A stretch of 23,003 nucleotides of DNA from a virus: positions 1 to 23,003 of IMG/VR virus record IMGVR_UViG_3300025949_000095; one strand, given 5' to 3'. Made by a program: the position numbers and the translations under genes. The notes beneath the pieces are model-generated. The model was not told the DNA's origin, searched no databases, and saw nothing but the letters and a program-made list of their open reading frames with translations. Below are positions 7,514 through 22,951 of the stretch, piece after piece. The first letter of the stretch is position 1. Every line of letters begins with the position of its first letter.

Positions 7514-7755
7514 TGCAGCAGGAACAATCCATCTCCGCAAAAATCCTGGCCGTGTTCGAGGAGGGCCCGGGAATGATCGATGACCTCGTGCTGGAACTCG
7601 GCATGTCGCCGAACCGCATCAGTGGCACGCTCAATCATTTGATCCGTGCAAGGAAGCTTGAGCGCAAGCCGTTCCACCTTCCGCCAGAGCTGCGCAAGCC
7701 GGGTAAGTCCGATGTTTTCCTATACTCGCTGCGAAGCTACAGGAAGGCGGCGTAA
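7513..7755 (+). CDS. Small winged-helix-like protein
   Basis: An 80-residue protein, MQQEQSISAKILAVFEEGPG, followed by MIDDLVLELGMSPNRISGTL and NHLIRARKLERK, then an aromatic-basic tail. This is the shape of a compact winged helix: a recognition helix around SPNRISGTLNHL, then a beta-wing. It is probably DNA-binding. The start overlaps the previous stop (TAATG), and its TAA overlaps the next ATG. The target is unknown. Confidence 0.7.
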   Translation: MQQEQSISAKILAVFEEGPGMIDDLVLELGMSPNRISGTLNHLIRARKLERKPFHLPPELRKPGKSDVFLYSLRSYRKAA

Positions 7756-8150: not shown

Positions 8151-8153
8151 GTC

Positions 8154-8432
8154 ATGAATTATGCACATTTTGCTGAGTACGTCCGCAACATCGAGGATGA
8201 CCTCGTGAAGTTTGGCGTGCCGGCGAGTGAGGCCGCCAACATTGCGACGTACATCGAGGCCGCCGCCGTGAGTGCCGAAGCGAAGCAGCGCAAAGAGGAT
8301 CAGATGCGTCTTGATTTCCGCACGCACGAAGTCTCCGATCTGGCGAAGCGACACAACGTCACCGACCGCACCATCCGAACATGGAAGGCGAGGCTATTCG
8401 AGAATCCAGCACTGCGCAAAGTAGGAACATAG
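8154..8432 (+). CDS. Mor/gp49-like regulator ending in TAG
   Basis: A 92-residue protein. MNYAHFAEYVRNIEDDLVKF and GVPASEAANIATYIEAAAVS are followed by a C-terminal helix-turn-helix (SDLAKRHNVTDRTIRTWKAR). It resembles Mor/gp49-like phage transcription factors, so it may activate later genes. Its stop is TAG (8430-8432), the only gene in the window that clearly ends this way. Read as glutamine, translation would continue 31 more residues to a TGA at 8526-8528, over the next ribosome-binding site and start. That extension is Cys/Ser-rich and does not look like protein, so I treat TAG as a genuine stop here. Confidence 0.7.
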   Translation: MNYAHFAEYVRNIEDDLVKFGVPASEAANIATYIEAAAVSAEAKQRKEDQMRLDFRTHEVSDLAKRHNVTDRTIRTWKARLFENPALRKVGT

Positions 8433-8493
8433 CTTCCGGCCCAGCTTCCATTTTGCGTTAGATCATGCCGCCAATCCTCAGAGGGTCGGTGTA

Positions 8494-9267: not shown

Positions 9268-9452
9268 GCGAGTCCAAATCAAGTAGCGGCGGTATCGGAT
9301 TCGCCGGCCTGCTGACCGTGCTGTTCATCGGCCTGAAACTGACCGGCGCCATCACATGGAGCTGGTGGTGGGTCTTGTCGCCGCTATGGCTGGGCTACGC
9401 CATTGTGCTGCTTATCGTGGCGGTCTGGCTGTTTGTGGCGGCGCTGTCATGA
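9264..9452 (+). CDS. Small membrane protein, Fragile-X-F (TMEM185)-like
   Basis: A 62-residue protein starting at GTG 9264 (overlapping the preceding TGA). Two hydrophobic segments, about residues 12-29 and 36-61, are separated by TGAITWSWWWVLSPLW. This WSWWWVLSPLW motif is typical of phage and bacterial small proteins annotated as transmembrane Fragile-X-F. It is predicted to lie in the inner membrane; function is unknown. It is far from the lysis cassette, so a holin role is unlikely but not excluded. Confidence 0.75.
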   Translation: MSESKSSSGGIGFAGLLTVLFIGLKLTGAITWSWWWVLSPLWLGYAIVLLIVAVWLFVAALS

Positions 9453-9889
9453 GCGCTAGGAAGGAAGACGCTTTGCGCCGTAATCCTGAATACGTGTACC
9501 AAAAAACTAAGCGTTGGCGTGAAGCAAACCCAGAGATGGCACGGGCGCAACGGAAGCGAAATTACGCCTCGCGTTGCGACAGGTATCGAGCTGACCCGGC
9601 CAAGTATCTTTGGAGGACTGCGCGAACCCGGGCCAAAGCAACCGGAGTCAAATTCGATATTGATCCATCTGACATATCCATACCGGACTATTGCCCGATC
9701 ACTGGCGAAAAAATAGACGTCCTTGTCAGCAATTACCAGAACGGAGCGTCGGTTGATCGTGTTGTTAACTCCCTTGGTTATGTCAAGGGCAACGTGCGCG
9801 TTATCTCGCGCAAGGCCAATCGAATGAAGGGGGACGCGACCATTGGCGACCTTCTTCGCATGGTTGCATACATGAGGGGCGAGATATGA
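9449..9889 (+). CDS. HNH-like endonuclease
   Basis: A 146-residue protein from ATG 9449 (ATGA overlap). The N-terminal 70 residues are very basic (KTKRWREANPEMARAQRKRN) and likely bind DNA. The C-terminal part has CPITGEKIDVL, SVDRVVNSLGYVKGNVRVIS and RKANRMKGDATIGDLLRMV. This layout, a Cys-containing knuckle, Asp-Arg, Gly-Tyr, Asn-Val and Ala-Asn-x-x-Lys, is known from HNH/endonuclease VII-like phage proteins. Codon use looks a little less GC-rich than its neighbours, so it may be a recent insertion (a free-standing homing nuclease). Confidence 0.7.
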   Translation: MSARKEDALRRNPEYVYQKTKRWREANPEMARAQRKRNYASRCDRYRADPAKYLWRTARTRAKATGVKFDIDPSDISIPDYCPITGEKIDVLVSNYQNGASVDRVVNSLGYVKGNVRVISRKANRMKGDATIGDLLRMVAYMRGEI

Positions 9890-10842
9890 CGGCGGCCAAG
9901 CGCGAAGTGGCGGCTATGCTTACCGACGGCATTAGCCAGCGGGAGATTAGCAGGCGCACAGGGGTATCCCGCAAAACGATTTATAGGTGGGCCAATGAAA
10001 TACCCAAGCCTGACTCGGCTCCGCGCAGACATTTTGTTTTGCCCGACACCCAATGCAAGCCGGGCGAGCCGATGGATCATCTGCGCTGGATCGGTAAGGC
10101 GATTCGCGACTACAAGCCCGACGTGGTGATTCACATCGGCGACCATTACGACTTCCCAAGCCTGTCCACGCATTCCGCTCCCGAGTCCGGTGCAATGGAA
10201 GGGTTGCGTTACGAGGACGACCTGAAAGCCGGTAATGATGGCCTACGCATCCTGCACAAAGCGATGGGCGTCTGGCATGGTCGGAAGATTCTGTTGCGGG
10301 GTAACCACGAGAACCGCCTGACGCGCTATATCGACCGCAACCCGAAGCTTGCTGGCGCGATGGGCTTCCACCAGTTCGCCGATAAGTCGCTAGGCTGGGA
10401 AGTGGTCGATTACTACTGCGGGTCGCCCGGCCAGATCGTGGTCGATGGCGTTATCTACGCCCATTACTTCGCGGCAGTGAATACGGGCCGCGCTATCGGC
10501 GGCACGGCCAACAACAAGCTCAATCACGTAGGCCGGTCATTCGTGCAAGGCCATGTGCAGGGCTATGAGGTCGGGACGAAGCAGTACGCCACTGGCGTAG
10601 TCCGCAAGGGCATCGTTGCCGGCTCTGCTTACCTGCACGACGAAGATTACAAGGGCATGGCTAACTCGCACTGGCGCGGCGTCGTCGTGCTGAACGAAGT
10701 CAGCGACGGGCAGTTCTGCGAGATGCCATTAACGCTGGACTATCTCTGCCGCAAATACGAGGGCATGAGCGTAGCCCGATACCTTCGCGAGCATTACGAA
10801 AACGCCGAGCAGCGGTTTTGCTTGGCTAGGAGTGTGGCATGA
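9886..10842 (+). CDS. HTH-metallophosphoesterase fusion
   Basis: A 318-residue protein. Residues 1-40 are a resolvase-type helix-turn-helix (GISQREISRRTGVSRKTIYR). From residue 48 it is a calcineurin-like phosphoesterase: FVLPDTQC, HIGDHYD (GDxxD), LLRGNHENRLTR (GNHE) and a late QGHVQG in place of the usual GHxH. These residues build the two-metal centre. The substrate could be nucleotides, nucleic acid or protein phosphate; the sequence does not decide. It overlaps both neighbours by ATGA. The HTH fusion suggests action at DNA. Confidence 0.85.
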   Translation: MTAAKREVAAMLTDGISQREISRRTGVSRKTIYRWANEIPKPDSAPRRHFVLPDTQCKPGEPMDHLRWIGKAIRDYKPDVVIHIGDHYDFPSLSTHSAPESGAMEGLRYEDDLKAGNDGLRILHKAMGVWHGRKILLRGNHENRLTRYIDRNPKLAGAMGFHQFADKSLGWEVVDYYCGSPGQIVVDGVIYAHYFAAVNTGRAIGGTANNKLNHVGRSFVQGHVQGYEVGTKQYATGVVRKGIVAGSAYLHDEDYKGMANSHWRGVVVLNEVSDGQFCEMPLTLDYLCRKYEGMSVARYLREHYENAEQRFCLARSVA

Positions 10843-11204
10843 GCTTGTTTACCAAGAAGGCTAAGGTTGAGCGCGTCATAGAGCGGACCATTGAAAAGGA
10901 GGTCATTGTCGAAAAGGAGGTCATTAAGTATCTGCTCGGCAACGCCGAAAGGGTTGTGGTGTATCGGGCATTCAAAGAGGAGACGAGAGTCTTTGTTGTT
11001 GGTTTCGCGATCGCTCCGCATACAACCGCTACGGAGCTTGGCTATTACCACTCATGTGCCCAAGCCTTTGCAGAGAATCCAGGCTGCAAAGTTGAGACTC
11101 GATCCCTATGGAAGATTGGTGACAAATTTGTCAAAAGCCTGAATGTAGTGCCGGTCAATATCAAGATCGAGCCAAAGCCTAAGCGCGGCAAAGGAAAGGC
11201 ATGA
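10839..11204 (+). CDS. Hypothetical protein with N-terminal Glu/Lys/Val coiled coil
   Basis: A 121-residue protein. Residues 5-30 repeat a charged KVERVIERTIEKEVIVEKEV pattern that is probably a short coiled coil. The rest has beta-like stretches (RVFVVGFAIAPHTTATELGY) and a basic KPKPKRGKGKA-like tail. No family recognised. The base composition is more AT-rich than its neighbours. It is coupled by ATGA to both adjoining genes. Confidence 0.65.
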   Translation: MSLFTKKAKVERVIERTIEKEVIVEKEVIKYLLGNAERVVVYRAFKEETRVFVVGFAIAPHTTATELGYYHSCAQAFAENPGCKVETRSLWKIGDKFVKSLNVVPVNIKIEPKPKRGKGKA

Positions 11205-11419
11205 AAGGCAAGCGCATATTCCTTGAGTCTCCGAAACACAGCGGCTCCTACGTGCGCGTGACCGTCGATGAGGACACGGGCTATTTGGAGATGAAGCTAT
11301 CCGACTGTGATCGCCGCATCTGGTGGATTTTTGGCAAGCCCGGGGATAAGCGCGCCGTCAGGAAGATCAAACTACTCAAGGCGATTGTCGATGAAGTCCA
11401 TGGGCACTTAGTCAAATGA
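11201..11419 (+). CDS. Hypothetical small protein
   Basis: A 72-residue protein, MKGKRIFLESPKHSGSYVRV, containing LEMKLSDCDRRIWWIFGKPG and a basic helix at the end. No family recognised. Four-base overlaps with both neighbours support translation. It is probably soluble and mixed alpha/beta. Confidence 0.6.
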   Translation: MKGKRIFLESPKHSGSYVRVTVDEDTGYLEMKLSDCDRRIWWIFGKPGDKRAVRKIKLLKAIVDEVHGHLVK

Positions 11420-11910
11420 GTGCCCTGCAACCCTTTGTGGCTCCTGATGTGGCCCAACGCTTCGCCACCACCGAACTAACCGACGAGTGCGTAGACGCAG
11501 CCAACCGCACAGCTCCTATGTTCGATTCCGCGTATCCCGGATGGCAACTCTATAGCCGCATTGTTCGCGGTGACACAGTGTTCGACCGCCAGCTGACCGC
11601 CTGGGCTATCGGATGCGCTCGCGCCTTCGCGCGGGCAAAGAAGCTAAACGGGCAGGGCGTAGTAGCTCCGCGTGGCCGACGCAATGATTGGATAGCTCAG
11701 GCTGGCGTTGACGCATTGGAGTTCGTCATCAATGGCAAGTACGACGAGTCAGCCCATGTTGCCGCTGGACGGCTTGCTGTCTGGACACCGAAATACCGCA
11801 AGGTACGCGGCTCGATCACGGCGATGATGCTTGACGGATTCGCCAACTATCAATCCGAACTTCACTACCAATACATGCGCGTTATGCGCGAAAACCGGAG
11901 AATCGCATGA
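11416..11910 (+). CDS. Hypothetical protein, possible late regulator
   Basis: A 164-residue, Ala/Arg-rich, mostly helical protein with AWAIGCARAFARAKKLNGQG, WIAQAGVDALEFVINGKYDE and RVMRENRRIA at the end. It is near the distal end of the early operon, about 0.7 kb before the tRNA/lysis region, where lambdoid phages keep the antiterminator Q. I see no zinc motif or other signature to prove this, so the role is position-based speculation. It overlaps both neighbours by ATGA. Confidence 0.55.
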   Translation: MSALQPFVAPDVAQRFATTELTDECVDAANRTAPMFDSAYPGWQLYSRIVRGDTVFDRQLTAWAIGCARAFARAKKLNGQGVVAPRGRRNDWIAQAGVDALEFVINGKYDESAHVAAGRLAVWTPKYRKVRGSITAMMLDGFANYQSELHYQYMRVMRENRRIA

Positions 11911-12187
11911 ATAACCAGATGAACGCTGCTGGCGCCGTGCCACGGCAAGCGCCTTATGACGAGGCCCGCGACCAGTTGGCTAATGAGCAGGCGAGGTCAG
12001 ATAGCCTTGTGACAGATCTGTATAGCCGGCTTAACCGGGCGCTTGACCCAATTGGCCTTGCGGTGGCACCGCATGTGATCCTGTGCCAGAGCGCGCCGAG
12101 ATTTGCCACAGTATGTACTCGGCTTTGTCAGTACAGCGAAGGCTTAATGAACAGCTTCAAGACATTCTTATCCGTCTCGTTCTCTGA
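11907..12187 (+). pseudogene. Small early protein gene with a probable -1 frameshift
   Basis: ATG 11907 overlaps the previous TGA, and the first 45-50 codons look coding (PYDEARDQLANEQARSDSLV, then TDLYSRLNRALDPI). After about 12047-12061, coding character moves to another frame. That frame reads GGTACDPVPERAEICHSMYS, then ALSVQRRLNEQLQDILIRLV and L before TGA at 12185-12187. In the original frame the continuation (to 12212) is Cys/Ser/Phe-rich and unconvincing. A -1 shift or one missing base would restore a roughly 93-residue, mostly helical protein. Function is unknown. Confidence 0.6.
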
Positions 12188-12626
12188 CTGCGACAATCGC
12201 CAAATCCCATGATGCAATGGGCTATGGCGGCCAACCGCCACTCATTTTGCCGCCCAGCCTCTACCGAAATCTCCCGAAGCCTCGCAAGGCCGGCAAGCTT
12301 GAACAGGGCGGCGATTCACATGCCCGCTCGGGACAATCATACGGCGCAGCATCACACCAGCGCCGGATTATCCCGAGCGGTAACAGTTTGGGGATGCATC
12401 AAATCCGATCACGTTTAGCTGACGTGGTGAGGTCGGGAGGCCCGTTACGCGCCGCAACCTCGAAACCCGGATGCAGCAGGGCTAGGCCGGCCCGTTCCCC
12501 CAATCAATCTGACCGTCCATGTGGCGGCACAGTAACAGAGGCGCTATGCGCTTCCAGTGGGGATCGTCGTGAGACGCCCAATGCCTGCCGGTGGGGCAAG
12601 ACCCCGGCCCGAATTTTGGAGGTTAC
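12188..12626 (+). other. Poorly coding stretch between early operon and tRNA/late region
   Basis: About 440 bases without a convincing intact gene. It holds a possible frameshifted gene (12217-12512, separate entry) and a GC-rich stretch at 12575-12612 with a GGGG-CAAGA-CCCC hairpin just before the ribosome-binding site of the 12627 gene. It lies where lambdoid phages place the late promoter, but I could not identify a clear -35/-10 pair. Confidence 0.4.
12217..12512 (+). pseudogene. Possible frameshifted gene containing one TAG
   Basis: From ATG 12217 the frame reads MGYGGQPPLILPPSLYRNLP, KPRKAGKLEQGGDSHARSGQ and, by about 12423, RSRLADVV. Near 12430-12440 a -1 shift leads into GRPVTRRNLETRMQQG, then TAG at 12483-12485, then AGPFPQSI and TGA at 12510-12512. 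With TAG as Gln, the C-terminus looks protein-like. The start has no good ribosome-binding site, and the unshifted frame (to 12672) becomes low-quality. This is a suggestion only. Confidence 0.3.
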
Positions 12627-12863
12627 ATGCATTACCGCAACGGCCGCGAGGCCAAGAACGGCGACAAGATAGTCAGGTTGGAAGGCGGCAAGGTTGTGGC
12701 TTTTGGCGTGCTTCATGGCGCCGTTCCCGGAAACGATTTCTGCAACGGCAGCATCGCTGTCGTGCAGTCGGCGAATGAGTACGCGTGCATGTGCGATTGC
12801 TTGCACATCGATGATGTGGCCGAGATGCTGGCAGATAAGGGCCTCAACAAACGCCCCGCATAA
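12627..12863 (+). CDS. Small phage protein of unknown function (MHYRNGREAK type)
   Basis: A 78-residue protein starting MHYRNGREAKNGDKIVRLEG, with VVAFGVLHGAVPGNDFCNGS and CMCDCLHIDDVAEMLADKGL. The TTGGAGG ribosome-binding site fixes ATG 12627 over the longer frame at 12591. I recognise the N-x-R-E-A-K-x-G-D and Cys-Leu-His patterns from small phage proteins often found near lysis genes; the function is unknown. It ends with TAA nine bases before the tRNA-Thr gene. Confidence 0.75.
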   Translation: MHYRNGREAKNGDKIVRLEGGKVVAFGVLHGAVPGNDFCNGSIAVVQSANEYACMCDCLHIDDVAEMLADKGLNKRPA

Positions 12864-12872
12864 CCCCAACAC

Positions 12873-12948
12873 GCCGGATTAGCTCAGACGGTAGAGCAGT
12901 CCCTTTGTACGGCACAGGTCGTGGGTTCGACTCCTGCATCCGGCTCCA
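12873..12948 (+). tRNA. tRNA-Thr (TGT)
   Basis: A seven-pair acceptor GCCGGAT/ATCCGGC, a D-arm with GCTC/GAGC and a T-arm with loop TTCGACT. The anticodon loop TTTGTAC gives TGT (12906-12908), which reads ACA. The anticodon stem has one C-C mismatch (12901/12913). The 3' end is T-CCA, encoded. TTGTA matches bacterial tRNA-Thr loops. Confidence 0.85.
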
Positions 12949-12953
12949 ATTAC

Positions 12954-13040
12954 GGAAGGTTCCGCTAGGTTGGCTGGCAATCCGGTTTGAACCCGGAGGG
13001 ACTGGAAACGGTAGGGGTTCGACTCCTCAGCCTTCCGCCA
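12954..13040 (+). tRNA. tRNA-Ser (TGA)
   Basis: A class II tRNA: acceptor GGAAGGT/GCCTTCC, a perfect five-pair anticodon stem TCCGG/CCGGA, loop TTTGAAC with anticodon TGA (12988-12990; decodes UCA). It has a long variable arm with ACTG-GAAA-CGGT, T-loop TTCGACT, discriminator G and encoded CCA. The long arm and G73 fit serine. It follows tRNA-Thr by five bases. Confidence 0.85.
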
Positions 13041-13056
13041 CTTCAACGAGGCAGCC

Positions 13057-13332
13057 ATGACCGACGAACCCGAGGGCAGCGCAGAGCCTGAAATCGAGTT
13101 CGTGGTTGACGGCGACTCGCGCTCCGAAGTCTACGAATGGGATTCGCCCAGCGGCAAAGGCGGCACATATATCTTCCCGTCCGGCGTCGAGGCATGGGCC
13201 GAAACTAACGGCGTGGAGTTGGTGCATATCGACAAGACCACGGGCGTTATCACGGTCCAGCACGAGCTAGGCGCGCCATTTCGGCAGATAGACAAGTCGC
13301 TGAACACGGGCGCGGTTAAGCCGATCAAATGA
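13057..13332 (+). CDS. Hypothetical late protein
   Basis: A 91-residue acidic protein starting MTDEPEGSAEPEIEFVVDGD, with GGTYIFPSGVEAWAETNGVE and ITVQHELGAPFRQIDKSL. It is the first protein gene after the two tRNAs. Its stop overlaps the endolysin ATG (ATGA), so it belongs to the lysis transcript. It has no signal peptide or membrane helix. No family recognised. Confidence 0.6.
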   Translation: MTDEPEGSAEPEIEFVVDGDSRSEVYEWDSPSGKGGTYIFPSGVEAWAETNGVELVHIDKTTGVITVQHELGAPFRQIDKSLNTGAVKPIK

Positions 13333-13769
13333 ACATCTCACCCATTGGCCTCGACCTCATTAAGCGTTTTGAAGGGTTGAAGCTTGCGGCGTACCCCGAT
13401 CCAGGCACGGGTGCCGAACCCTACACCATCGGTTACGGCCATACGGGCGGCGTGAAGCCATTGGACACATGCACGCTTGCTCAGGCTCAGGCTTGGTTGC
13501 AAAGCGATGTGCGGGGCATTGTCCGCGCCCTAGCTGACATGATTTCAGTTCCTGTAACGCAGGGGCAGTTCGATGCCTGCGTGTCACTCGCCTACAACAT
13601 TGGCGTTTCGGCGTTTCGCGGATCGACCCTGCTGCGCCAGTTGAACGTGAGCAAGTATCAAGCGGCGGCGGACGAGTTTCCGCGCTGGAATAAGTCCGGC
13701 GGAAAGGTTCTGCCGGGATTGGTGGATAGACGGGCAGCAGAATGCGCCTTGTTTTTGGGAGAGGCGTGA
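13329..13769 (+). CDS. Endolysin, GH24 lysozyme (muramidase)
   Basis: A 146-residue protein of the T4/P22 lysozyme family, the usual length for a single-domain endolysin. Catalytic Glu15 lies in LIKRFEGLKLAAYPDPG, Asp24 in the same stretch and Thr33 in YTIGYGHT, matching the Glu-Asp-Thr triad. GQFDACVSLAYNIGVSAF and LPGLVDRRAAECALFL complete the fold. It cleaves the beta-1,4 bond between MurNAc and GlcNAc in peptidoglycan. There is no clear signal-anchor sequence, so release probably needs a holin. It overlaps both neighbours by ATGA/TGATG. Confidence 0.95.
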   Translation: MNISPIGLDLIKRFEGLKLAAYPDPGTGAEPYTIGYGHTGGVKPLDTCTLAQAQAWLQSDVRGIVRALADMISVPVTQGQFDACVSLAYNIGVSAFRGSTLLRQLNVSKYQAAADEFPRWNKSGGKVLPGLVDRRAAECALFLGEA

Positions 13770-14101
13770 TGATTGACTGGACTGCGGTAGGTGGTGGCGC
13801 CGGCATGCTGCTGACCGGCATTCTCGGCTGGTTCACGGGCAAGGGGCGGCGTGACGTATCGACAGCGCAGGACAACGCGCAGATATCGGATTACCGCGCC
13901 GATCAAGCCACTACCGATGCCGCAGCCGCACAAGTCACTGCGCTGATTGGTCGCGTGACAGCCCTTGAATCCAGTCATGCCGATCTGTGGCAGCGATTGC
14001 AGGACGAGGTGACGAAGCGCATGAAGCTCCAATTCCGCGTGCTGCAGCTCGAAGGCGTGTTGCAGGCACACAGCATCGAAGTCCCGCCCGAACAGCCATG
14101 A
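13769..14101 (+). CDS. Membrane-anchored coiled-coil protein, possible holin partner
   Basis: A 110-residue protein from ATG 13769 (TGATG overlap with the endolysin stop). Residues 5-24 (TAVGGGAGMLLTGILGWFTG) form one membrane segment. The rest is soluble and strongly helical, with heptad-like runs (AAAAQVTALIGRVTALESSH and VTKRMKLQFRVLQLEGVLQA). One membrane helix plus a coiled coil next to an endolysin could be a single-span holin, an antiholin or another lysis protein. No family is certain. Confidence 0.65.
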   Translation: MIDWTAVGGGAGMLLTGILGWFTGKGRRDVSTAQDNAQISDYRADQATTDAAAAQVTALIGRVTALESSHADLWQRLQDEVTKRMKLQFRVLQLEGVLQAHSIEVPPEQP

Positions 14102-14172
14102 GCCTGCACGACCGTCTCTACTTGCTGGCGTGCGAGGTCTACATGTTCGCTTGCGTGTCACGGATCATCTAA
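14098..14172 (+). CDS. 24-residue hydrophobic small protein
   Basis: ATG 14098 overlaps the previous TGA. It encodes MSLHDRLYLLACEVYMFACV plus SRII and ends with TAA. The hydrophobic centre could insert in a membrane. The four-base coupling and placement among lysis genes favour a real gene, but the size gives little statistical support. Function is unknown. Confidence 0.4.
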   Translation: MSLHDRLYLLACEVYMFACVSRII

Positions 14173-14175
14173 CCC

Positions 14176-14805
14176 ATGCGCATCCTCGCCGCCCTGCTAT
14201 GTGTAGGGCTGGCAGGATGTATCCATGTGGATACGGCGCGTGAAACCGCAGTCCGCCTCCAATTCTCCAACGGGTCGTGTAGTGGCACGATTGTCGGGCC
14301 TCATGCCGTCCTGAGCGCGACGCATTGTTTCAGCTTCGGCGAGACGTTGCGGCTATGGCAACAGCCAGTGCGCATCCTGCAACAGATTGATGACGGTAAC
14401 GACCACACCATCATCATCGTGGATCGGAACTTTCCGGTATGGGTGGTCGTCGGCCACATGCCCAAAGTGGGCAGTCCCATACACATCTTGGGTAACCCGG
14501 GCGACCTGACCGAACTGTACCGGCATGGCTATGTTGCTGGCGTCGAGGGCGTAGGCGGCAAGCTGTGCGACCTGTACGACCTTCGCGGGTGGTTCGGGGA
14601 CTCCGGAGCAGGGATCTTCGATGATAACGGCCACCTGATTGGCGTCATCAGCCTCATTTACACGTTAGACGATGGACGCGGGCAGCTCACGATGATGGGC
14701 GGCTTCCCGCTGGCATTCACAGCCGAACAGTGGGGCGAGGCATTACGGGGTTCTCCGCGTAACTTTGCAATCGGCGCTCAAAACTATCAGGTCAGCGCGA
14801 AATGA
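14176..14805 (+). CDS. Secreted trypsin-like serine protease lipoprotein
   Basis: A 209-residue protein with a lipoprotein signal (hydrophobic residues 3-13, lipobox LAGC, Cys15). A chymotrypsin-fold protease follows: His50 in VLSATHC, Asp76 or Asp83 as the acid, and Ser143 in GWFGDSGAG. The paired cysteines C35/C51 flank the His loop as in trypsins. The export signal puts it in the periplasm, attached to a membrane. It lies between the endolysin and the spanins, so it may attack envelope proteins during lysis, process a virion protein or alter the lysogen surface. The role is inferred from position. Confidence 0.8.
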   Translation: MRILAALLCVGLAGCIHVDTARETAVRLQFSNGSCSGTIVGPHAVLSATHCFSFGETLRLWQQPVRILQQIDDGNDHTIIIVDRNFPVWVVVGHMPKVGSPIHILGNPGDLTELYRHGYVAGVEGVGGKLCDLYDLRGWFGDSGAGIFDDNGHLIGVISLIYTLDDGRGQLTMMGGFPLAFTAEQWGEALRGSPRNFAIGAQNYQVSAK

Positions 14806-15095
14806 GCTTCCTTCTGCGCTGGTGGAAGCCTATAGCCGTGATCCTTATGGCTGCCGGCCTCTACTTCGGCGGCATGTACCAAGGCCACCACGGCGAGGTA
14901 CAGCGCCAAGCCGTCAAGCACTCCAAGCAAGTCGTTAGGGATCAAAAGGCCGTAACCAAGCGTGCCGAGGTTCGCAGTCATGTTGAGCAGGACACATAGA
15001 AGTTACCCGACGCGCCTATTCAGCGCATTGGGGATGCTGATCCTGTTACCGCTGCTGGCAAGTTGCGCGCTTGGGCAAGAGACAAAGCCAAGTAA
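14802..15095 (+). CDS. Rz: Inner-membrane spanin (Rz) with an in-frame TAG
   Basis: Starts at ATG 14802 with a membrane anchor (KPIAVILMAAGLYFGGMY) and a periplasmic charged helix (VQRQAVKHSKQVVRDQKAVT). Codon 66 is TAG (14997-14999). Read as Gln, it continues QKLPDAPIQRIGDADP and a 15-residue end to TAA at 15093-15095, giving 97 residues; the QKLPDAPIQRIGDADP type of ending is typical of phage inner spanins. Without read-through the protein has 65 residues and loses the C-terminal part expected to reach the outer spanin. So completion of lysis should need the amber-decoding tRNA at 15413. The gene overlaps the protease stop and contains the start of the outer spanin. Confidence 0.85.
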
Positions 15096-15219
15096 TGGGT
15101 GTGAGTGGGTTAAGCCGATCTATCCGAGTGTGAACGACCAGCTCACGGATGGCACGGCTAAACAGATCCTCGATCACGACGAAACCGGCAAGACCATATG
15201 CGGGTGGAAACAGCCATGA
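14980..15219 (+). CDS. Rz1: Outer-membrane spanin lipoprotein (Rz1)
   Basis: A 79-residue frame embedded in another frame of the inner spanin gene, the classic Rz/Rz1 layout. It has a hydrophobic signal (SALGMLILLPLLASC) with lipobox LLASC and Cys29, then a mature domain EWVKPIYPSVNDQLTDGTAK and a conserved-looking ICGWKQP end. I choose ATG 14980 over 14962 because it leaves a compact signal peptide. It has no TAG. The base that makes the inner-spanin TAG (14997) is a silent third position here (His CAT). It ends overlapping the next ATG. Confidence 0.85.
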   Translation: MLSRTHRSYPTRLFSALGMLILLPLLASCALGQETKPSNGCEWVKPIYPSVNDQLTDGTAKQILDHDETGKTICGWKQP

Positions 15220-15344
15220 CCCTATTGCACATCATCGCCGCGCTGATCTTCATTTCCGGCCTAGTCTCGCTCGGTGCGCTGATCTGGCTGCGCGAGAGTG
15301 ACGAGCTGATTCAACCGACTGTGCCGAAAGACCGTGAACGGTAA
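15216..15344 (+). CDS. 42-residue single-span membrane protein
   Basis: ATG 15216 overlaps the outer spanin TGA. The protein has one strong hydrophobic segment (LLHIIAALIFISGLVSLGAL), then WLRESDEL and a charged tail ending in TAA. Its position after the spanins makes a holin or antiholin possible. No family recognised. Confidence 0.6.
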   Translation: MTLLHIIAALIFISGLVSLGALIWLRESDELIQPTVPKDRER

Positions 15345-15555
15345 GGGATCGGCCCCACGCCCATTCAGCGTGGATCAGGCGACATTCGCCAGCAACTGGG
15401 ACGCAATCTTTTCGGGGAGTGGCGTAATGGGCAGCGCGGCGGACTCTAACTCCGCAGGTTCCGGCTCGGCTCCGGACTCCCCCGCCATCTATATCGACGC
15501 CGACACTGGCGAATAGGTCACTGAAGACTGGTGGCCCGGCGATTCGCATGACTGA
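15334..15555 (+). CDS. Small late protein overlapping the suppressor tRNA; contains TAG
   Basis: GTG 15334 begins MNGKGSAPRPFSVDQATFAS followed by NWDAIF, the pattern of small phage proteins beginning GKGSxPRPxSV. Codons 27-51 run through the tRNA gene and give only Gly/Ser/Ala-rich sequence. Then YIDADTGE is followed by TAG (15514-15516). Read as Gln, it continues VTEDWWPGDSHD to TGA at 15553-15555, overlapping the next ATG. The tRNA spans exactly 75 bases, so it could be an in-frame insertion into this gene. tRNA processing would cut this mRNA. Whether the protein is made is uncertain. Confidence 0.45.
15413..15487 (+). tRNA. Amber-decoding suppressor tRNA (CTA), glutamine-type
   Basis: The acceptor 2-7/66-71 is GGGGAG/CTCCCC with an open C1-C72 position. 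The D-stem is GCGT/GCGC, the anticodon stem GCGGA/TCCGC, the loop CTCTAAC with anticodon CTA at 15446-15448, and the T-stem TCCGG/CCGGA. G73 and CCA are encoded. CTA pairs with UAG. An unpaired 1-72 position, G2-C71, G3-C70, G73, G10, U35 and A37 are features GlnRS recognises, so charging with glutamine is likely. The T-loop CTCGGCT is unusual (C54, G58). It lies just upstream of the terminase and capsid genes, which carry in-frame TAG codons. Confidence 0.9.
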
Positions 15556-15751
15556 CGATGAGCTGACTGATCAAGCGGCTGCCAATCTGATCCGCTGCTA
15601 CGTGAAGCAGAGTATCATGGCGATGCTGGTCCGGACGCGCGGGACAGAGGTAAGCATCGTCTGCCCGAACGGTGACAAGACATTCATGGCCGCATTGCTT
15701 CGAGCTGCGGCTAAATCGCTGGATGAGCCGGCGAGTAAGAGAATCAACTGA
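15548..15751 (+). CDS. Hypothetical late protein before terminase
   Basis: A 67-residue protein (MTDDELTDQAAANLIRCYVK, then VRTRGTEVSIVCPNGDKTFM and a helical end). ATG 15548 overlaps the TGA that ends the 15334 frame when TAG is read through. This supports that the upstream gene really ends at 15555. No family recognised; no TAG inside. Confidence 0.6.
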   Translation: MTDDELTDQAAANLIRCYVKQSIMAMLVRTRGTEVSIVCPNGDKTFMAALLRAAAKSLDEPASKRIN

Positions 15752-15784
15752 AGGGTGACGCGAGAGCAGCCCGAGGAATGAGAT

Positions 15785-16138
15785 ATGGGAAGGCCAACCG
15801 ACTATCGGGAGGAATACTGCGATACCGTCATTGAGCTTGGCAGGCAGGGCAAGAGCCATTGCTAGATTGCTGCCGAACTTGATGTGGCACGGCAGACTCT
15901 GCACAACTGGGCTAGTGAACATCCTGAATTTTTGGACGCAATCACGCGAGCAAGGGACTTGGCTCAAGCGTGGTTCGAGAACATGGGCCAGTCTGGCCTT
16001 GTCATGCCGGGTTTCAACGCCTCGCTGTGGGCCAAGCAGGTGAGCTGCCGATTCCGCGACGACTACACGGACAAGCAACAGACGGAACACTCTGGAACGT
16101 TGACCGGCTTGACGGTGACCTTTGTCGCGCCCGAGTAA
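15785..16138 (+). CDS. terS: Terminase small subunit, one in-frame TAG
   Basis: ATG 15785 follows a GAGGAA ribosome-binding site. The protein begins MGRPTDYREEYCDTVIELGR, and codon 27 is TAG (15863-15865). Read as Gln it gives HCQIAAELDVARQTLHNWAS, a complete helix-turn-helix, then DAITRARDLAQAWFENMGQS and FNASLWAKQVSCRFRDDYTD, ending at TAA. This is the usual DNA-recognition subunit that selects phage DNA for packaging, here 117 residues. Without suppression only 26 residues are made, with no start codon soon after for a usable restart. Its end overlaps the large subunit start. Confidence 0.9.
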
Positions 16139-17381
16139 AGCCATCGAGTTCCCGGCCAAGCTCCAATGCCTATTTGGTCCGCAACGCTATACCGTGCTTC
16201 ACGGTGGCCGAGGTGGCGCCAAGTCATGGGGCGTGGCCCGGTCCTACCTGATCCGAGGCGCGCAGTCTAAGCGTCGTTTCCTGTGCACTCGCGAAGTGCA
16301 GAAGTCAATCCGCGATTCGGTGCACAAGTTGCTAAGTGACTAGATCCAGGCGCTTGAACTTGGTGCGTTCTACGAGGTGCAGTAGAACATCATCAAAGGG
16401 GCCAACGGGACCGAGTTCCTATTCTCCGGCCTGAGCGATCAGACCGCGGAGTCGATTAAGTCGTTTGAAGGCGTCGATGATGTGTGGATCGAAGAGGCCC
16501 AGGCTGTCAGCAAGCGCTCATGGGACATTCTTATCCCGACGATCCGCAAGGCCGGGTCTCGCATCACGGTCACGCTGAACCCCGAGTTGGACACGGACGA
16601 AACCTATGTCCGGTTCATCGAGAACCCGCCACCGGATTCCGTGGTGGTGAAGATCAACTATGCGGACAATCCGTGGTTCCCCGAAGTATTGGAGGCTGAG
16701 CGGCTGCATGCGCTCGCCACGATGCCTCGCGTGGACTACGACAACATCTGGGAGGGCCTGTGCAAGCCCGCCGTCACTGGCGCGATCTATGCCGATGAGA
16801 TTGCCAAGGCGCAGGAAGAGGGCCGTATTGGCCTGTTCCCGTATGACCCAGCACTCAAGGTTCACGTCATCTTCGACTTGGGCTGGAACGACAAGATGGC
16901 GATTGGCTTGTGCCAGCGCCACATCTCGTCCCTGCGCCTGATCGAGTACATCGAGGTTGATCACAAAACGCTGGACTGGTGTTCTGCCGAGCTGAAGCAA
17001 AAGAACCTCAATTGGGGCCGTCTCTGGCTGCCGCACGATGGCGCGCACGGCGACTACAAGACCGGCAAGAGTGCCGAGCAGATCATGCGTGAGCTAGGCT
17101 GGGATGTGGGCATTGTGCCGATCCAGCCGGTCGAGACGGGCATCAAGGCGGCCCGCATGGCGTTCGGTCAGCTCTACATCAACAAGACTAAGTGTGAGCG
17201 CCTGATCCAGTGCCTGAAGCGCTATAAGCGCGGCGTTCCCGTCTCCACTGGCGAGCCGGGCGCTCCGGTCCACGACGAGTGGAGCCACGGTGCCGATATG
17301 TTCCGATACATGGCCTCAACGGCGCCAAAGATGGTTAACGAAGATATGCGTCCGATTTCCTATCACAGGCTTACCCGCTAA
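16122..17381 (+). CDS. terL: Terminase large subunit, two in-frame TAG codons
   Basis: The packaging ATPase-nuclease. Start: a TGA lies at 16116-16118 and the first usable start is TTG 16122, overlapping the small subunit, so I accept it with caution. Walker A is GGRGGAKS (28-35). TAG is codon 74 (16341) and codon 88 (16383), in SD-Q-IQALELGAFYEVQ-Q-NII, where glutamine fits. Walker B/catalytic is DDVWIEEA (119-126), and TVTLNPELDTDETYV is the coupling motif. The nuclease part has VIFDLGWNDK (Asp about 252) and the C-terminal HDEWSHGADMFRYMA. About 419 residues, normal for this family. Ends TAATG with the portal. Confidence 0.93.
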
Positions 17382-19588
17382 TGGCATACACGTCCAACAA
17401 GGCGTCGATCAAGCACGAGAAGATGACGGACGATGTTATCGAGCTTGCCTGCCGCAACGCGCTGGACAACAGCATGGGTGGGCCGGGCACTGAGATTGCC
17501 TAGCTGCGGCTGCGCAATTTGGAGTACTACAACGCCGAACCCACTGGCGAGCTTGCGCCGCCTGAGATTGACGACCGCAGCGACTTCGTGGCCACGGACG
17601 TTGCCGATACCGTCGAGGCGATGCTGCCGCAGATCATGAAGCCGTTCGTTACGGATGATGAAGCAGTGGAGTTCCAGGCGCGCCGCCCCGGTTCTGAGCC
17701 TGTCGCATAGCTCGCCACGGCCTACGTGAATTACCTGTTCTACACCAAGAACGACGGTGTAGGCGTCATGTACGACTGGTTCAAGGATGCGCTGATTCAG
17801 AAGGTCGGCTTCGTCAAGGTATGGGCTGAGGAGGAATTCGAAGATATTCAGACCGCCTATTCCGGCATCACGCAGGAACAGGTGGTGATGCTGCAGCAAT
17901 AGGGCTGGGAGCTTGACGGCGAACCGCAGCAGGAAGAGCCGCAGGCCATGCCGCAGCAGTTCGGGCCAGACGGGCAGCCAATGCCGCAGCCGCCCGCCAT
18001 TCCGACGCTCACGGTCAGCCTGAAGAAAGAAGACAAGCGCATGGCGGTGAAGGTCGCCGCCTGCGCGCCGCACGAAGTCCGTGTGGACGCCAATGCGCGC
18101 TGGGGCGATGAGCCGGCGATGATTGCCCACGTCTACCCGCGCCGGAAGTTTGAGCTTGAAGAGGAAGGCTATGACCTGTCCGATATTGGCCAGTCCGGCA
18201 ACGATTCGCGGTACGACAGCGAGACGCTTGCATAGCTTGGGCTGAATGCCGATTACACGGCAGTAGAGCCGCACGAAAGCCATAAGCTGTACCAGTGCAG
18301 CGAGGTCTACATCAAGCTCGACGCGGACGGTGACGGCATTGCCGAATGGCTGTGCTGCCACATGATCGAGCAGAAGCTGGTGGAGTGGGAGAAGTGCGAC
18401 GGGCATCCGTTCGTGTGGATCTGCCCCATTCCTCGTCCGCATGCGTTCTTCGGCGATTGCCCGGCCGACATGGCGCTGCAGCCTCAGAAGCTGCGCACGA
18501 ACGTCATCCGCGCCATCCAAGACAACATGATGCTGTCCGTCAACCAGCGGACCTACATCAATCTTGATGCCGGCGTGAACATGGACGACTGGCTGGAAAA
18601 CCGGCCCGGTGGTGCGGTTCGCGGTCACGGCCCGGCGAATACCGCGATCCAGCCCATTGTGCAGCCTGCGTTGGGCGCTCCAGCCTACGAATTCAACGAA
18701 TGGTTGGAAGGTTGGAAGGAAAATCGCACCGGCTTCACGCGCTACTCGCAGGGCATGGACTCCGACAGCCTCAACAAGACGGCGACCGGCGTCAGCATCA
18801 TCACGCAGAAAGCCGACATGCGCATGGAGCTGATGGCGCGCATGTTCGCGGTCGGCATGAAGGGGTTGTTTAGCAAGATGCTGAAACTCGCTGTCCAGTT
18901 CCAGGACAAGGCCGAGATGATGCAGGTGAATGGGTCATGGGTCGCCGTGAACCCGTCCGAATGGAAGGATCAATTCAACACGACAATCAAGGTCGGTCTT
19001 GGCACGGGCAGCAAGGAGCAGCTTGCCGCTCGCGTCATGGGCCTGATGCAGGTTCAGATGCAGGCTGCACAGTTTGGCGTCGTCACGCCCGCGCAGATTG
19101 CCGAGACCGTCAAGTTGTACGTGCAGGCTGCCGAGTTCAAGGAGCCTGAGCGCTTCGTGAGTCCTGAGCCAACCGGCATGCCCCCGAACCCGCAAGCCTT
19201 CCAGCAGATGCAGCAGCAGCAGCAGCAGCAGATGGAGCAGGCGAAACAGCAGTTGGAGCAGTTGAGCCAGGAGAACGGACAGCTCAAGCAGTAGACGGCC
19301 CAGCAGCAGCAGGACGCATCGCTGAAACAGATGGAGTTGGAGCAAAAGGCCCGCGCCGCCGAGGACAAGCACGCCGAGACGCTGGCGAGCATTAGCCTCA
19401 AGCAGTAGGACCAAGACCGCAAGGCGCATGAATCGCACATGGCCGGCGTCGAGACGGCTCACAGCATGGCGCACAAGGACATCGACGCGCAGCAGAACCA
19501 ACAGATTGCCAGCTTGCAGCAGCAGTTGGATGAACTAAAGGCTGCGATGGGTTAGGGCGAAGCCAACGAGGAGGAGGGCGGCGAGTGA
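17381..19588 (+). CDS. Portal protein (P22/podovirus type), seven in-frame TAG codons
   Basis: A 735-residue protein when TAG is read as Gln at 17501, 17708, 17900, 18233, 19292, 19406 and 19553. It contains ADTVEAMLPQIMKPF, LYQCSEVYIKLDADGDGIAE, PRPHAFFGDCPADMALQPQK, FTRYSQGMDSDSLNKTATGV and MRMELMARMFAVGMKGLFSK, which I recognise from podoviral portals. It forms the dodecameric vertex ring through which DNA enters. The C-terminal 110 residues are Gln-rich coiled coil (19190-19550), encoded by CAG runs, with three of the TAG codons among them. The start overlaps the terminase TAA; the stop TGA overlaps the next GTG. Confidence 0.93.
19201..19240 (+). repeat. CAG-rich tract in the portal C-terminus
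   Basis: An uneven CAG triplet run encodes QQMQQQQQQQMEQ. CAG differs from TAG by one C-to-T change. The tract is a likely coiled-coil or flexible tail and could vary in length. Confidence 0.85.
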
Positions 19589-19866
19589 CCCCACAAGAAG
19601 AACTTGAACGCGGCCAACTTGCCGCCGACGTGCTGTCCAATCGCGTCTACGTCGAGACGATGGCGCAGATTCGGGACGAAATCCTCGCCCGCTGGCAGAT
19701 CGAGGCCGACGAGGCGAAGCGTGATCATCTGTGGCGCATGATCCAGTGCCACAAGCGTCTGGGCGACGTGCTGGAACAGACGATGATTACCGGAAAGATG
19801 CAGCAGAAGGCCATCCAGGCCGAGCAATCCCGCGCTGAACGGCTCAAGGGCGTGTTTCAGCGGTAA
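19585..19866 (+). CDS. Hypothetical head-region protein
   Basis: A 93-residue protein from GTG 19585 (GTGA overlap with the portal stop). It is almost wholly helical and charged: MTPQEELERGQLAADVLSNR, then QIRDEILARWQIEADEAKRD and LGDVLEQTMITGKMQQ. Similar small proteins lie between portal and scaffold genes in podoviruses; the function is unknown. It contains no TAG. Confidence 0.7.
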   Translation: MTPQEELERGQLAADVLSNRVYVETMAQIRDEILARWQIEADEAKRDHLWRMIQCHKRLGDVLEQTMITGKMQQKAIQAEQSRAERLKGVFQR

Positions 19867-20041: not shown

Positions 20042-20977
20042 ATGGCAGGTGACGCAGCGATGCAGCCAGCCGATAGCGCAACGTCGCTCTCGGATCTTGG
20101 CGGATTTATCGACAAGTCCGAGGAAGTCGAGGGCGAGGAATCGGAAGAGGAGGAAGCGCCGGAAGGTGAGGAATCCGAGTAGGAAGAGGAAGAGGGCGAA
20201 GAGGGCGAGGACGAGGCCAAAGACGACGAAGGAGACGACTCCACCATTGTGCTGAAGCACGATGGCAAGGATGTGCCGCTGAAGAAGTCCGAGGTGATCG
20301 AGTTGGCCTAGAAGGGCTTCGACTACTCGCAGAAAACGATGGCTGTCGCGGAGGAACGCAAGCACGTCGAGGCGTTGCAGGCGCAAGCCGACGAGTACCG
20401 CCAGCACAACGAAAAGGCATTGACGGCGACCCTTGACCGTCTGAATGCATTCGCTCAGTTCACCGAGTCACAGATAGGCGCCCCGCCGCCTGTCGAACTG
20501 GCCTCGCAGGATGTGGGGCTGTACATCGCACAGAAGGAGCAATACGAAACACGCAAGGGCCAGTTACAGAGGGCGCACGAGGCCATCGCGAATGTTCAAC
20601 AGGAAGCGCAGCGGAAACGCCAAGCGTGGATTGCGGAACAGGCCGATGCCACCGAGAAGGCGCTGAGGGACACCCTGCCGGGTTTTGGTGAGAAGACAAT
20701 CGACGAATTGGCCGCGTACCTTGGCAAGGCTGGCATCAGCCCCAAGACCGCCGACGTCGGTTATGTGCAGAAGGGTTTGTGGGAGATTGCCGCGAAGGCA
20801 AAAGCCTATGACGAGTTGCAGGCCAAAACGGCCACGCTCAAGCCCGTTGCACAACTGCCCAAGGTGGCTAAGCCATCGGCGGCAAACCAGCCCAACAGGG
20901 CGGCTGTGAACAAGCAGGAGGCGTTCAAGCGCTTCGATGCCAAGCAGTCGCTTCAATCCCTCGGTAACTTGCTTTAA
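20042..20977 (+). CDS. Scaffold protein, two in-frame TAG codons
   Basis: A 311-residue protein with TAG at codon 47 (20180) and codon 90 (20309), both read as Gln. The first 75 residues are extremely acidic (EEVEGEESEEEEAPEGEESE). Then IVLKHDGKDVPLKKSEVIEL and KGFDYSQKTMAVAEERKHVE begin a long helical region. The end is basic (KRFDAKQSLQSLGNLL). Acidic start, coiled-coil body, basic end and position between portal and capsid are typical of procapsid scaffolds. Without suppression only 46 residues form. The spacer to the capsid ATG is nine bases, with an AAGGA ribosome-binding site. Confidence 0.85.
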
Positions 20978-20986
20978 GGAACAACC

Positions 20987-21955
20987 ATGACCGCGAATAC
21001 CCTGATTACCCCGTCCGTCGTCCGTGTGGCGGAGGATGTGGAAGACCGCATCTACAACTTCAATCCGTAGGATACCCCGCTCGTTAGCATGATCGACCGC
21101 ATCAAGGTGTCGAACGTGTTCCACGAGTGGACCCGCGACAGCTACCGCGCCCCGAGTGCATCGAATGCTGCAATCGAAGGCGCTGATGCCTCCTACGCCG
21201 CGCAGGTCCAGCCCGGCCCGTTGAACAACCGCACACAGATTTTCCAAGACACCTTGAGCGTGTCCAACACTGCCGAGACGGTCAAGAAGTACGGCCGTTC
21301 GTCCGAAATCAACCGCCTGAAAGCGAAGAAGATGGTTGAGCTGAGGCGCGATATCGAGGCGGCCGCCATCGGCAACGGCGCGTCTGTCACGGGCACCGGC
21401 AGCGTGGCCGGCCAGATGCGTGGCCTGTTCGGCTTCATCGCCACGAACGCCAGCGTTGGCGCCACCACGGGCGTTGCGCCGAACCCGGTAACCAATACCG
21501 CCCCGGTGGCGGGTACGGCTCGCGCTATCTCTGACGTGTTGGTCAAGGCGGCGGTTCTGGCTGCGTATACCAACGGCGGCAGCGGTAGTGTCCTACTGGT
21601 CTCGCCGGCACAGAAGCAGAAGGTCTCCGCGCTGACCGGCAACGTCACGCGGCAGCAGTAGGTTCCGTCTGATAAGGACGGCAATCTGGTGCTGAACACC
21701 GCCTTCACCTTCTACGGCCATGACTTCGGCAATACGAAGGTGGTTCCGGATCGCGTAATGGCGGCTGGTGGGGCTGGCTTGACGGCATCGGCCTACCTGA
21801 TCGACGGCGATAAGCTGGCCCTGGGCCAGCTGCGTCCGTTCGAGTCGGAGCAGCTGGCGACCACGGGCGATGCCAAGCAGTGGCAGATCCGCACCGAAGT
21901 CACGCTGGTGGTGCGTGATGAAAAGCCGCTCGCGTCGATCCTTGACCTGAGCTGA
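20987..21955 (+). CDS. Major capsid protein (SU10/DUF5309 type), two in-frame TAG codons
   Basis: A 322-residue protein with TAG at codon 28 (21068; RIYNFNP-Q-DTPLVSMI) and codon 225 (21659; GNVTRQQ-Q-VPSDKDG). FHEWTRDSYRAPSASNAAIE, VSNTAETVKKYGRSSEINRL and KMVELRRDIEAAAIGNGASV are hallmarks of the SU10/DUF5309 capsid family (HK97 fold). The end has DGDKLALGQLRPFESEQLAT and VTLVVRDEKPLASILDLS. Without amber read-through only 27 residues are made, so no capsid could form. Followed by a strong terminator-like hairpin at 21964. Confidence 0.95.
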
Positions 21956-22007: not shown

Positions 22008-22298
22008 ATGCGCGCACGGATTGAACAGATAGACGCCTTACATGAGGCACATATCTACGAAGCCAGCATGGACGACCTCCGCGCCGTGGCCGATCATTGC
22101 AAGGCGCGTTAGAGCGCTGGCGATACCGGCGATAGCGAAATGCGAGCACTGATGACGGTCCCAGCCATCATCGTGCAGCAGTACATGAACGAAAATGGCG
22201 TGTCGTATCCCGAGTTCATGCGCAACCCTGAGCATGCCCGCCGCATGATGAACGACCCAGCCCTATCCGCCTTCCGCATCCATCGGGGTCGCGTCTGA
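22008..22298 (+). CDS. Small head-region protein, one in-frame TAG
   Basis: A 96-residue protein from ATG 22008 (CGGAGG ribosome-binding site). MRARIEQIDALHEAHIYEAS precedes TAG at codon 35 (22110; ADHCKAR-Q-SAGDTGDS). Then PAIIVQQYMNENGVSYPEFM and RNPEHARRMMNDPALSAFRI. It ends with TGA overlapping the next ATG (TGATG). I do not recognise the family; position suggests a capsid-vertex or head-completion accessory. Without suppression a 34-residue fragment results. Confidence 0.75.
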
Positions 22299-22951
22299 TG
22301 CAGTTCTCGAACTACACCGACTTCCGCACCGCCGTGCTGAAGATGATCGACGGTGACGACACCAATGCTGGCGCCCTGAGCCAGTCTACGCTAGATCTGC
22401 TGATTGGCATGGGGGAGTAGGCGGTTTACTACGGCATGACGGGCGCGCGTGGTGAGACATTGCCGCCGCTGCGCTGCGCTGAAATGGAGTCGCCGCTAGC
22501 CATCACGGCTACCGGAAACATCGCCACGATCCCCGCTGACTGCCTTGAGCTGATCCGCGTGCAGGTATCGGGCGAATATCCGATGGACTACGCCGCCGAA
22601 GAGGGCCAGCTTCGCTAGCTGAAAGCTGGTGGTGGCTCGGGTGCGGCACGCAAGTACACGCAACAGGGATTGAGTCTGTTGTTCTTCCCCACGGTAACGG
22701 ATGGAACCGCCATCGCCGGCCGGTACTACAAAAAGGCGGCGGATATCTCGTCCGGCACGCTGAATGCCGCGTTCAACCGCTACCCCGACGTGTGGCTTTA
22801 CGCTGCGCTGGCTGAGTCAGCCCCGTTCATCGGCGAGGATGGCCGTTTGCCGCTGTGGAAGGCGCAATACGCAGGTCGGTTGATGGCTGCGCTTGCCAAT
22901 GAGCGCGCCCGCTTCACGCACGGATCGCGGCTGACCCAGGTTCCCCGGTGA
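22298..22951 (+). CDS. Head-tail adaptor-like protein, two in-frame TAG codons
   Basis: A 217-residue protein with TAG at codon 41 (22418; IGMGE-Q-AVYYGMTG) and codon 107 (22616; EGQLR-Q-LKAGGGSG), both natural as Gln. MQFSNYTDFRTAVLKMIDGD, IATIPADCLELIRVQVSGEY, IAGRYYKKAADISSGTLNAA and RYPDVWLYAALAESAPFIGE match the pattern of podoviral/SU10-type adaptor proteins that bind beneath the portal ring. It ends with TGA overlapping GTG of the next gene. Confidence 0.85.

Follow-up and report, generated by a model that had tools for sequence, protein, structure and literature searches.

Does an amber codon in a spanin gene hold back the last step of lysis until a phage-encoded suppressor tRNA has been made? 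The question is raised by the window analysed here, a stretch of 23,003 nt of virus DNA (positions 1 to 23,003 of IMG/VR record IMGVR_UViG_3300025949_000095), in which the frame of a predicted inner spanin contains a TAG codon and a gene for tRNA(CUA) follows on the same strand. A sequence-only reading had proposed that this arrangement is a device which times lysis. According to our analysis it is highly probable that the late block as a whole is recoded, with TAG read as glutamine by means of the phage tRNA(CUA), and that the spanin is one passenger gene of this block.

The inner spanin frame (14802..15095, + strand) starts with ATG at 14802, meets TAG at 14997–14999 as codon 66 and ends with TAA at 15093–15095. 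With TAG read as glutamine it has 97 codons, and without suppression the product is 65 residues long; the claimed truncation at codon 66 was confirmed in sequence and coordinates. The N-terminal hydrophobic segment and the remainder up to residue 65 are unaffected by the TAG. The protein is Rz-like by PHROGs (phrog_1026, E 2e-4) and has homologues in relatives. The gene of the outer spanin (14980..15219, + strand; phrog_1275, E 2e-18), an Rz1-like lipoprotein in which a LASC lipobox was recognised by eye, is free of TAG and begins 5' of the inner TAG. Judged from the family matches, the overlap and a membrane segment seen by eye, the pair is a predicted two-component spanin of the Rz/Rz1 type, with a membrane-anchored inner protein and an overlapping outer lipoprotein. 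In lambda, the inner spanin Rz has an N-terminal membrane segment, and the outer lipoprotein Rz1 starts inside the inner gene in another frame. The window pair shares this layout, but its inner frame carries the in-frame TAG.

In the inner frame, the T at 14997 is the first base of its codon; in the outer frame it is the third. The assumed C-to-T origin of the TAG proved right, since the related phages L004, L005/L013 and L006/L007 have CAG at this codon, which most likely is the ancestral one. L005/L013 and L006/L007 have CAG also at codon 63, the place where L004 has a TAG of its own, three codons earlier than in the window. The change was correctly described as silent in the outer frame as well; this silence is automatic and implies no design, because C and T are always synonymous in the third position of an outer codon. 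The TAG of L004 is silent by the same frame geometry.

TAG codons in the late genes of the window and its relatives

TAG codons were counted in 37 genes picked by hand from the ORF lists, with positions 1–2464 excluded, shadow ORFs and TAG-extended variants removed and the helicase gene trimmed of its overlapping 5' portion. The 12 late genes, from 14802 onward, hold 19 TAG vs 164 CAG/CAA, whereas the 25 early genes, from 2465 to 14805, hold none vs 144 (Fisher p 1.3e-5); the late block is delimited on the basis of gene content rather than of transcripts. The TAG excess over chance is a property of the whole late region and not of the spanin. TAG occurs in nine of the 12 late genes, the exceptions being the outer spanin and the genes at 15548–15751 and 19585–19866. 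Besides the inner spanin, the recoded set includes the small terminase subunit TerS (15785..16138; one TAG; phrog_309, E 1e-26), the large subunit TerL (16122..17381; two; phrog_3717, E 3e-57), the portal protein (17381..19588; seven; phrog_1216, E 7e-119), the scaffolding protein (20042..20977; two; phrog_3927, E 2.5e-24), the major head protein (20987..21955; two; phrog_1328, E 1e-79), a late gene of unknown function which has no PHROG but homologues in relatives (22008..22298; one) and a virion structural protein (22298..22951; two; phrog_2941, E 1e-19), all on the + strand. The tail genes lie outside this 23 kb contig. A terminal TAG is found in none of the late genes and in one early gene (8154..8432, + strand), which weakly matches a family of late transcriptional activators (phrog_836, E 9e-4) and whose TAG was taken as a true stop.

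In the longer relatives, no TAG was found in the dnaB homologues of G004 and G005 or in the rep homologue of G004, and the single TAGs in two g11416 homologues fall before the aligning region. These data come from a rough ORF pick, which yields false antisense or over-extended TAG ORFs and was used only for genes with homologues or known position; three doubtful ORFs were checked individually.

The residues opposite the TAG codons point to glutamine. Of the 15 TAG columns of TerL, 11 are Gln in the nearest non-TAG relative, two are Glu, one is Lys and one is Ser. When selected late genes were compared to their nearest non-TAG relatives (>60% identical; a TAG common to several sequences is counted repeatedly), 22 of 29 TAG cells in the window clade (76%) and 74 of 102 in the other clade (73%) face Gln, and no other residue stands opposite more than seven TAG cells. 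CAG cells face Gln more often, in 315/349 (90%) and 679/783 (87%) cases, respectively. Because of this difference, the comparison suggests that a minority of the TAGs arose at variable, possibly non-Gln sites. With TAG in late but absent from early genes, and with Gln at the TAG columns of relatives, the window shows two traits of phage genetic code 15 (TAG to Gln); the third, a phage tRNA(CUA) with Gln identity, is present as judged from sequence elements only.

From these observations two codes in time may be proposed. Early, replication and lysogeny genes would be written in the standard code, while in the late block, which begins with the inner spanin and takes in terminase, portal and capsid, TAG would be an additional glutamine codon. 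The tRNA(CUA) would be co-transcribed with this block and charged by the host glutaminyl-tRNA synthetase, and TAG would then be translated as Gln. The spanin TAG would have arisen by a single C-to-T change from CAG and, since spanin and tRNA would be made together, it would be tolerated; full-length spanin would depend on the tRNA in the same way as terminase, portal and capsid.

We extended the analysis to relatives. A TerL search retained 80 of 177 confirmed viral loci, and 79 of these plus the window were tallied (L007 was omitted as a near-copy of L019/L020). TerL contains TAG in 20 of the 80, and a CUA tRNA lies upstream in all 20 loci; 17 of these tRNAs were found by ARAGORN and those of L012, L021 and L028 by eye or by a relaxed scan. 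Neither a TerL TAG nor a detected CUA tRNA was found in 56, some of which have little upstream sequence. The remaining four, L024–L027, have a CUA tRNA but a TerL without TAG; the record behind L024 has one TAG in its homologue of 22298–22951. These four may be at an early stage of recoding or in its reversal. In L021, the region with TAG extends further upstream than in the window, into the lysis-region protease, whose homologue (record G008, locus L250, 380–1006) has a TAG at codon 102. Small genes with a TAG at the same codon are located 5' of the tRNA ORF in L006, L014, L017, L018, L028, L029 and L062 (for instance, L014 5052–5240). This 55-residue gene between outer spanin and tRNA belongs to the other clade, and its TAG is common to six distinct sequences and L062.

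A genome collection yielded 17 TerL loci, and one of the 11 checked is recoded. This is L086, on a 432 kb contig of Dyella sp. SG609, with six TAG in TerL and identity to the IMG/VR locus L028 across 13,200 bases. In this prophage the integrase (PF00589) has a TAG past its catalytic domain, taken as the stop, and by the rough ORF pick the DnaB-like gene has no TAG and the late genes have many. The presence of a recoded prophage in this strain points to Dyella-like hosts, presumably for the window phage as well. We selected 40 rows for a TerL tree and labelled 15 of them as recoded (L024–L026 by their tRNA alone). On this tree the recoded label requires three changes; none of 500 shuffles gave as low a number, and the bootstrap 5–95% range is 3–3. 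Phages without detected recoding stand between recoded ones, and the three changes may reflect three gains, or fewer gains together with losses.

Late TAGs may also have been kept by selection, so that genes for lysis and structure are not expressed leakily in lysogens or in early infection; the tRNA would then act as the switch for the entire block, an idea put forward by Borges et al. This is an added claim, compatible with late-block recoding, which we hold to be possible but somewhat less than evenly likely. It agrees with the limitation of TAG to late genes, with the same plan in a prophage of a Dyella chromosome and with the same-codon TAG in the small gene 5' of the tRNA. Furthermore, the base after TAG is G in 84 of 173 cases vs 362 of 1142 after CAG (chi-square p 1e-4; six records pooled, which are non-independent). 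However, neutral drift under late-only suppression predicts an identical confinement, TAG makes up about 10% of the late Gln codons in the window (19/183), and its positions turn over.

The suppressor tRNAs and the ORF that holds them

The tRNA(CUA) of the window (15413..15487, + strand; ARAGORN; Rfam RF00005, 49.9 bits) lies, as had been stated, just 3' of the spanin genes on the same strand. It is an amber suppressor by anticodon and has a Gln-type acceptor end, with C1 and C72 unpaired, G2-C71, G3-C70, G73 and an encoded CCA. Its fold is no more stable than that of shuffled sequences (z 0.76), and the minimum-energy fold is the cloverleaf. Single-strand folding of eight of these tRNAs gave z values from -2.0 to 0.8, and by eye the cloverleaf was the minimum in four (window, L013, L017, L021).

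The 15 distinct CUA tRNAs which we compared fall into ten body groups, with at least 81% identity to the nearest member within a group and at most 76% between groups; host tRNAs of different amino acids have a mean identity of 60% and a maximum of 79%. The lengths are 71, 74, 75, 87, 90 and 106 nt. The variable region is long in two body groups (L006/L014; L012), and the D arm is reduced in a further two (L010/L181; L021/L086). An insertion of Ser or Leu by the Type II tRNAs was considered and rejected, as the TAG columns of their clade are mostly Gln (74/102; Ser 7). The acceptor end is common to all groups: positions 1 and 72 are unpaired, and G2-C71 and G73 are present, in 15 of 15; G3-C70 is present in 14, with C3-G70 in L024. 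Among 45 Dyella host tRNAs with CCA, the 1-72 pair is absent in one only, a tRNA-Met which we take to be the initiator. The host tRNA-Gln has G2-C71, G3-C70 and G73. Thus the conserved acceptor end looks as expected of amber suppressors that would be charged with glutamine.

According to PMC9976931, glutamine identity is tied to the anticodon, to positions 1-72 and 3-70 and to the discriminator, and every amber suppressor selected from tRNA-Asn in E. coli inserted Gln and carried substitutions that weaken 1-72. The combination of CUA with a weakened 1-72 thus leads to glutamine on other tRNA bodies in the laboratory suppressors described there; here we deal with natural phage tRNAs of about ten body types, whose charging is predicted. 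Among the matches listed in a literature search on suppressor tRNAs, phages, GlnRS and the discriminator, no title indicated a paper on phage recoding.

The quality of the tRNA matches varies. RF00005 scores are 49.4 bits for L012 and 46.6–56.7 for L004, L014, L017, L029 and L105, and 23.3 bits, under the threshold of 29, for L086. The best Rfam match of L010 is tRNA-Sec, with a sub-threshold 16.1 bits, and the L181 tRNA has no Rfam match at the gathering threshold. The bodies with reduced D arms (L010/L181; L021/L086) are therefore the least certain tRNAs. For crAss-like phages, extreme divergence of phage suppressor tRNAs is named in PMC12386605 as a reason for missed detection.

TerL identity and tRNA body do not go together. 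L010, L012 and L013 have a TerL 93–94% identical to that of the window and tRNAs from other body groups, whereas the TerL of L105 is only 35% identical and its tRNA is nevertheless of the window type, at 85%. Therefore, tRNA bodies move or are replaced at this locus.

The tRNA lies within a small conserved late ORF (15334..15555, + strand; the GTG start is a guess), for which we coined the label kgs after its conserved start KGSxPRPxSV....FAxxWDxIF. At E 0.01, kgs matches nothing in Pfam or PHROGs. An ORF for a 42-residue small hydrophobic protein, free of TAG, fills the space between outer spanin and kgs (15216..15344, + strand). The kgs frame enters the tRNA, crosses it and then reaches a conserved end, which is IYxDxxTGxxVTExWWP-like in the window, L004, L021, L024–L026, L181 and L105 and acidic (e.g. 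EDDD) in L010, L012, L013, L006, L014 and L062. L017, L028/L086 and L029 have kgs without either end, the conserved start is absent from L024–L026, and in L029 the tRNA is read in the other open frame. Among 28 non-independent pairs of the first kind of end, differences at codon positions 1, 2 and 3 number 100, 111 and 249, and between window and L004 they number 1, 0 and 7. Because differences pile up at codon position 3, the frame 3' of the tRNA appears to be translated. The kgs frame has an in-frame TAG of its own, located 3' of the tRNA in the window (15514..15516, + strand) and likewise after the tRNA in L004 and L021, but within the tRNA in L006/L019 and L017; L181 also has one.

The openness of the frame through the tRNA is by itself a weak argument, since 105 of 141 frames of host tRNAs lack TAA and TGA, and 45 lack any stop. 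If the numbers of frames open to TAA and TGA in the ten body groups are taken as independent, the chance of openness is (1/3)^2 x (2/3)^8 = 0.004, a figure which includes the L024 group without conserved start. The association with tRNAs is broader than the suppressors. Of 73 distinct ORFs with a kgs start, 19 overlap a same-strand tRNA (15 CUA and four Gly, Val or Phe), so that the kgs 3' end appears to be a wider seat of phage tRNAs; in four more, a tRNA follows 1–10 nt past the stop. In this tally three CUA cases were entered by hand, near-copies remain and ORFs running off the contig were dropped; retrieval was partly biased, as some queries contained tRNA-coded residues. In L113, L115, L123, L139 and L148 (the latter runs off the contig), Gly, Val, Phe and Ala tRNAs overlap the kgs end.

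We tentatively suggest, at less than even confidence, that the tRNA sits within a translated gene, so that a late transcript could yield either kgs protein or tRNA and a TAG-bearing kgs would need its own tRNA. Swaps of the cassette would keep only the acceptor end for GlnRS, perhaps evading host enzymes which attack tRNAs. If this is true, the recoding switch is a self-dependent, exchangeable module. We found no literature on tRNA genes nested in phage ORFs, which is weak evidence of novelty only.

The spanin amber as a proposed lysis timer

The sequence-only reading had placed the inner spanin alone under tRNA control. Its first half holds, in that full-length inner spanin should need the tRNA; the restriction to the spanin is not supported, as other late genes carry TAG too. 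A selected timer, in which the amber makes the final lysis step wait for tRNA and late expression, would nevertheless fit with the genes upstream. The lysozyme (endolysin; 13329..13769; PF00959, E 2.7e-44; phrog_7), a protein with an N-terminal hydrophobic stretch seen by eye (13742..14101; phrog_38423, unknown function), which is holin-like by position only, and a trypsin-like protease with lipoprotein-like N-terminus (14176..14805; PF13365, E 6e-8), all on the + strand, are free of TAG, as is the outer spanin. Hence the earlier lysis steps are not gated in the window, and only the last one could be held.

To judge the timer we searched 20 contigs and loci for the outer spanin; in nine distinct recoded lineages the spanin pair was located and fully readable. 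An inner-spanin TAG is found in three of the nine, which speaks for the timer as far as it goes, but at three different codons: 66 in the window, 63 in L004 and 43 in L105. The other six (L013, L014, L062, L017, L086, L020) have none, so that the amber is not conserved among these recoded lineages. The inner spanin of L029 has no TAG in its visible part, which is cut by the contig end, and at E 1e-3 the search gave no outer spanin hit in L010, L012, L021, L024, L026 and L181. Pooled inner spanins have three TAG vs 64 CAG+CAA, and TerL plus portal 65 vs 503 (Fisher p 0.09, the spanin being lower; the portal of L004 and L020 and both genes of L105 are excluded), so the spanin rate is not above that of TerL plus portal.

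The position of the tRNA gives little room for a delay either. Its 3' end is merely 392 nt past the inner-spanin stop on the same strand, and at bacterial rates this distance is transcribed in about 10 s. A delay, if there is one, would arise while the tRNA is processed, charged and accumulated, and it would affect terminase, portal and capsid to the same extent. In a simple scan of 12400–16200, neither promoter- nor terminator-like sites were seen on the + strand; at high GC this test is weak. The same scan, with its little power, also led us to reject a late promoter belonging to the tRNA itself: the sole promoter-like site is on the other strand and there are no terminators. Taken together with the automatic silence in the outer frame, a dedicated lysis timer is not supported and appears improbable; the spanin TAG is one late codon among many.

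Still less probable is a function for the 65-residue form, for instance as an antagonist that is anchored in the membrane and acts against the full-length spanin. It would retain the hydrophobic segment, but with the TAG at codon 43, 63 or 66 its length would vary, and none would be made in six of nine relatives; presumably the truncated form is non-functional. A sequencing error or a decaying spanin can practically be dismissed: nothing beyond the single base speaks for it, a slip at 14997 is unlikely because contigs L002 and L003 share the identical TAG at codon 66, the window has 18 more late TAGs, and the frame past the TAG is conserved in relatives, though the outer spanin overlaps it.

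Known systems and further features of the window

According to papers citing Borges et al. 2022 (doi 10.1038/s41564-022-01128-6), stop codons were found there to be over-represented among genes for structure and lysis, a finding linked to lysis timing (PMC10879173); the study is also cited for late-infection regulation of lytic genes (PMC11210395) and for preventing premature late-protein production (PMC10746230). As presented by these papers, the idea of amber-gated lysis is in its general form already published, and the window is a case of this known pattern of phage late-gene recoding. It shares with the phages of that study, as they are cited, the reading of TAG as Gln, a tRNA(CUA) encoded by the phage, recoding of genes for structure and lysis and a standard-code host. 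Its high GC, its kinship to a prophage of Dyella, the nesting of its tRNA in an ORF and the variation of the tRNA body between close relatives may set it apart from the published cases. In the suppressor tRNAs linked to theta ribozymes (PMC10879173), recoded lysis and structural genes are likewise thought to be activated by a phage amber suppressor tRNA. The window tRNA differs by its encoded CCA and by the lack of a ribozyme match: at Rfam gathering thresholds only two tRNA matches were obtained in the window, and no theta or HDV-like ribozyme by the tRNA.

The spanin TAG alone is therefore one more example of late-gene recoding, and the surrounding family is more useful. With close relatives that have unrelated suppressor tRNAs at one locus, with neighbouring lineages in which no recoding was detected and with a sequenced Dyella isolate whose prophage carries the system, origin, loss and exchange of recoding become testable, and the same family makes it possible to test lysis gating against mere drift. 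Its natural tRNAs also recall the glutamine insertion by CUA and a weak 1-72 in the laboratory (PMC9976931).

Some further features may be mentioned. Suppression at the end of the putative late activator (8154) would add about 32 residues up to a TGA at 8528, a possible feedback; no homologue of this gene was found in the contigs and loci >3 kb examined. Positions 1–116 form a tandem repeat of 4.3 copies of a 27-bp unit. At 930–960 and 2150–2210, TTAGGCATGCCTAA-like sites were seen by eye, near a Cro-like gene (2220–2405; P22_Cro, E 2e-5, under its cut-off), and together these suggest a temperate control region. Finally, genes for tRNA-Thr and tRNA-Ser are located at 12873–13040, 5' of the lysis genes, and in some relatives Ser/Ser or Pro tRNAs take their place.
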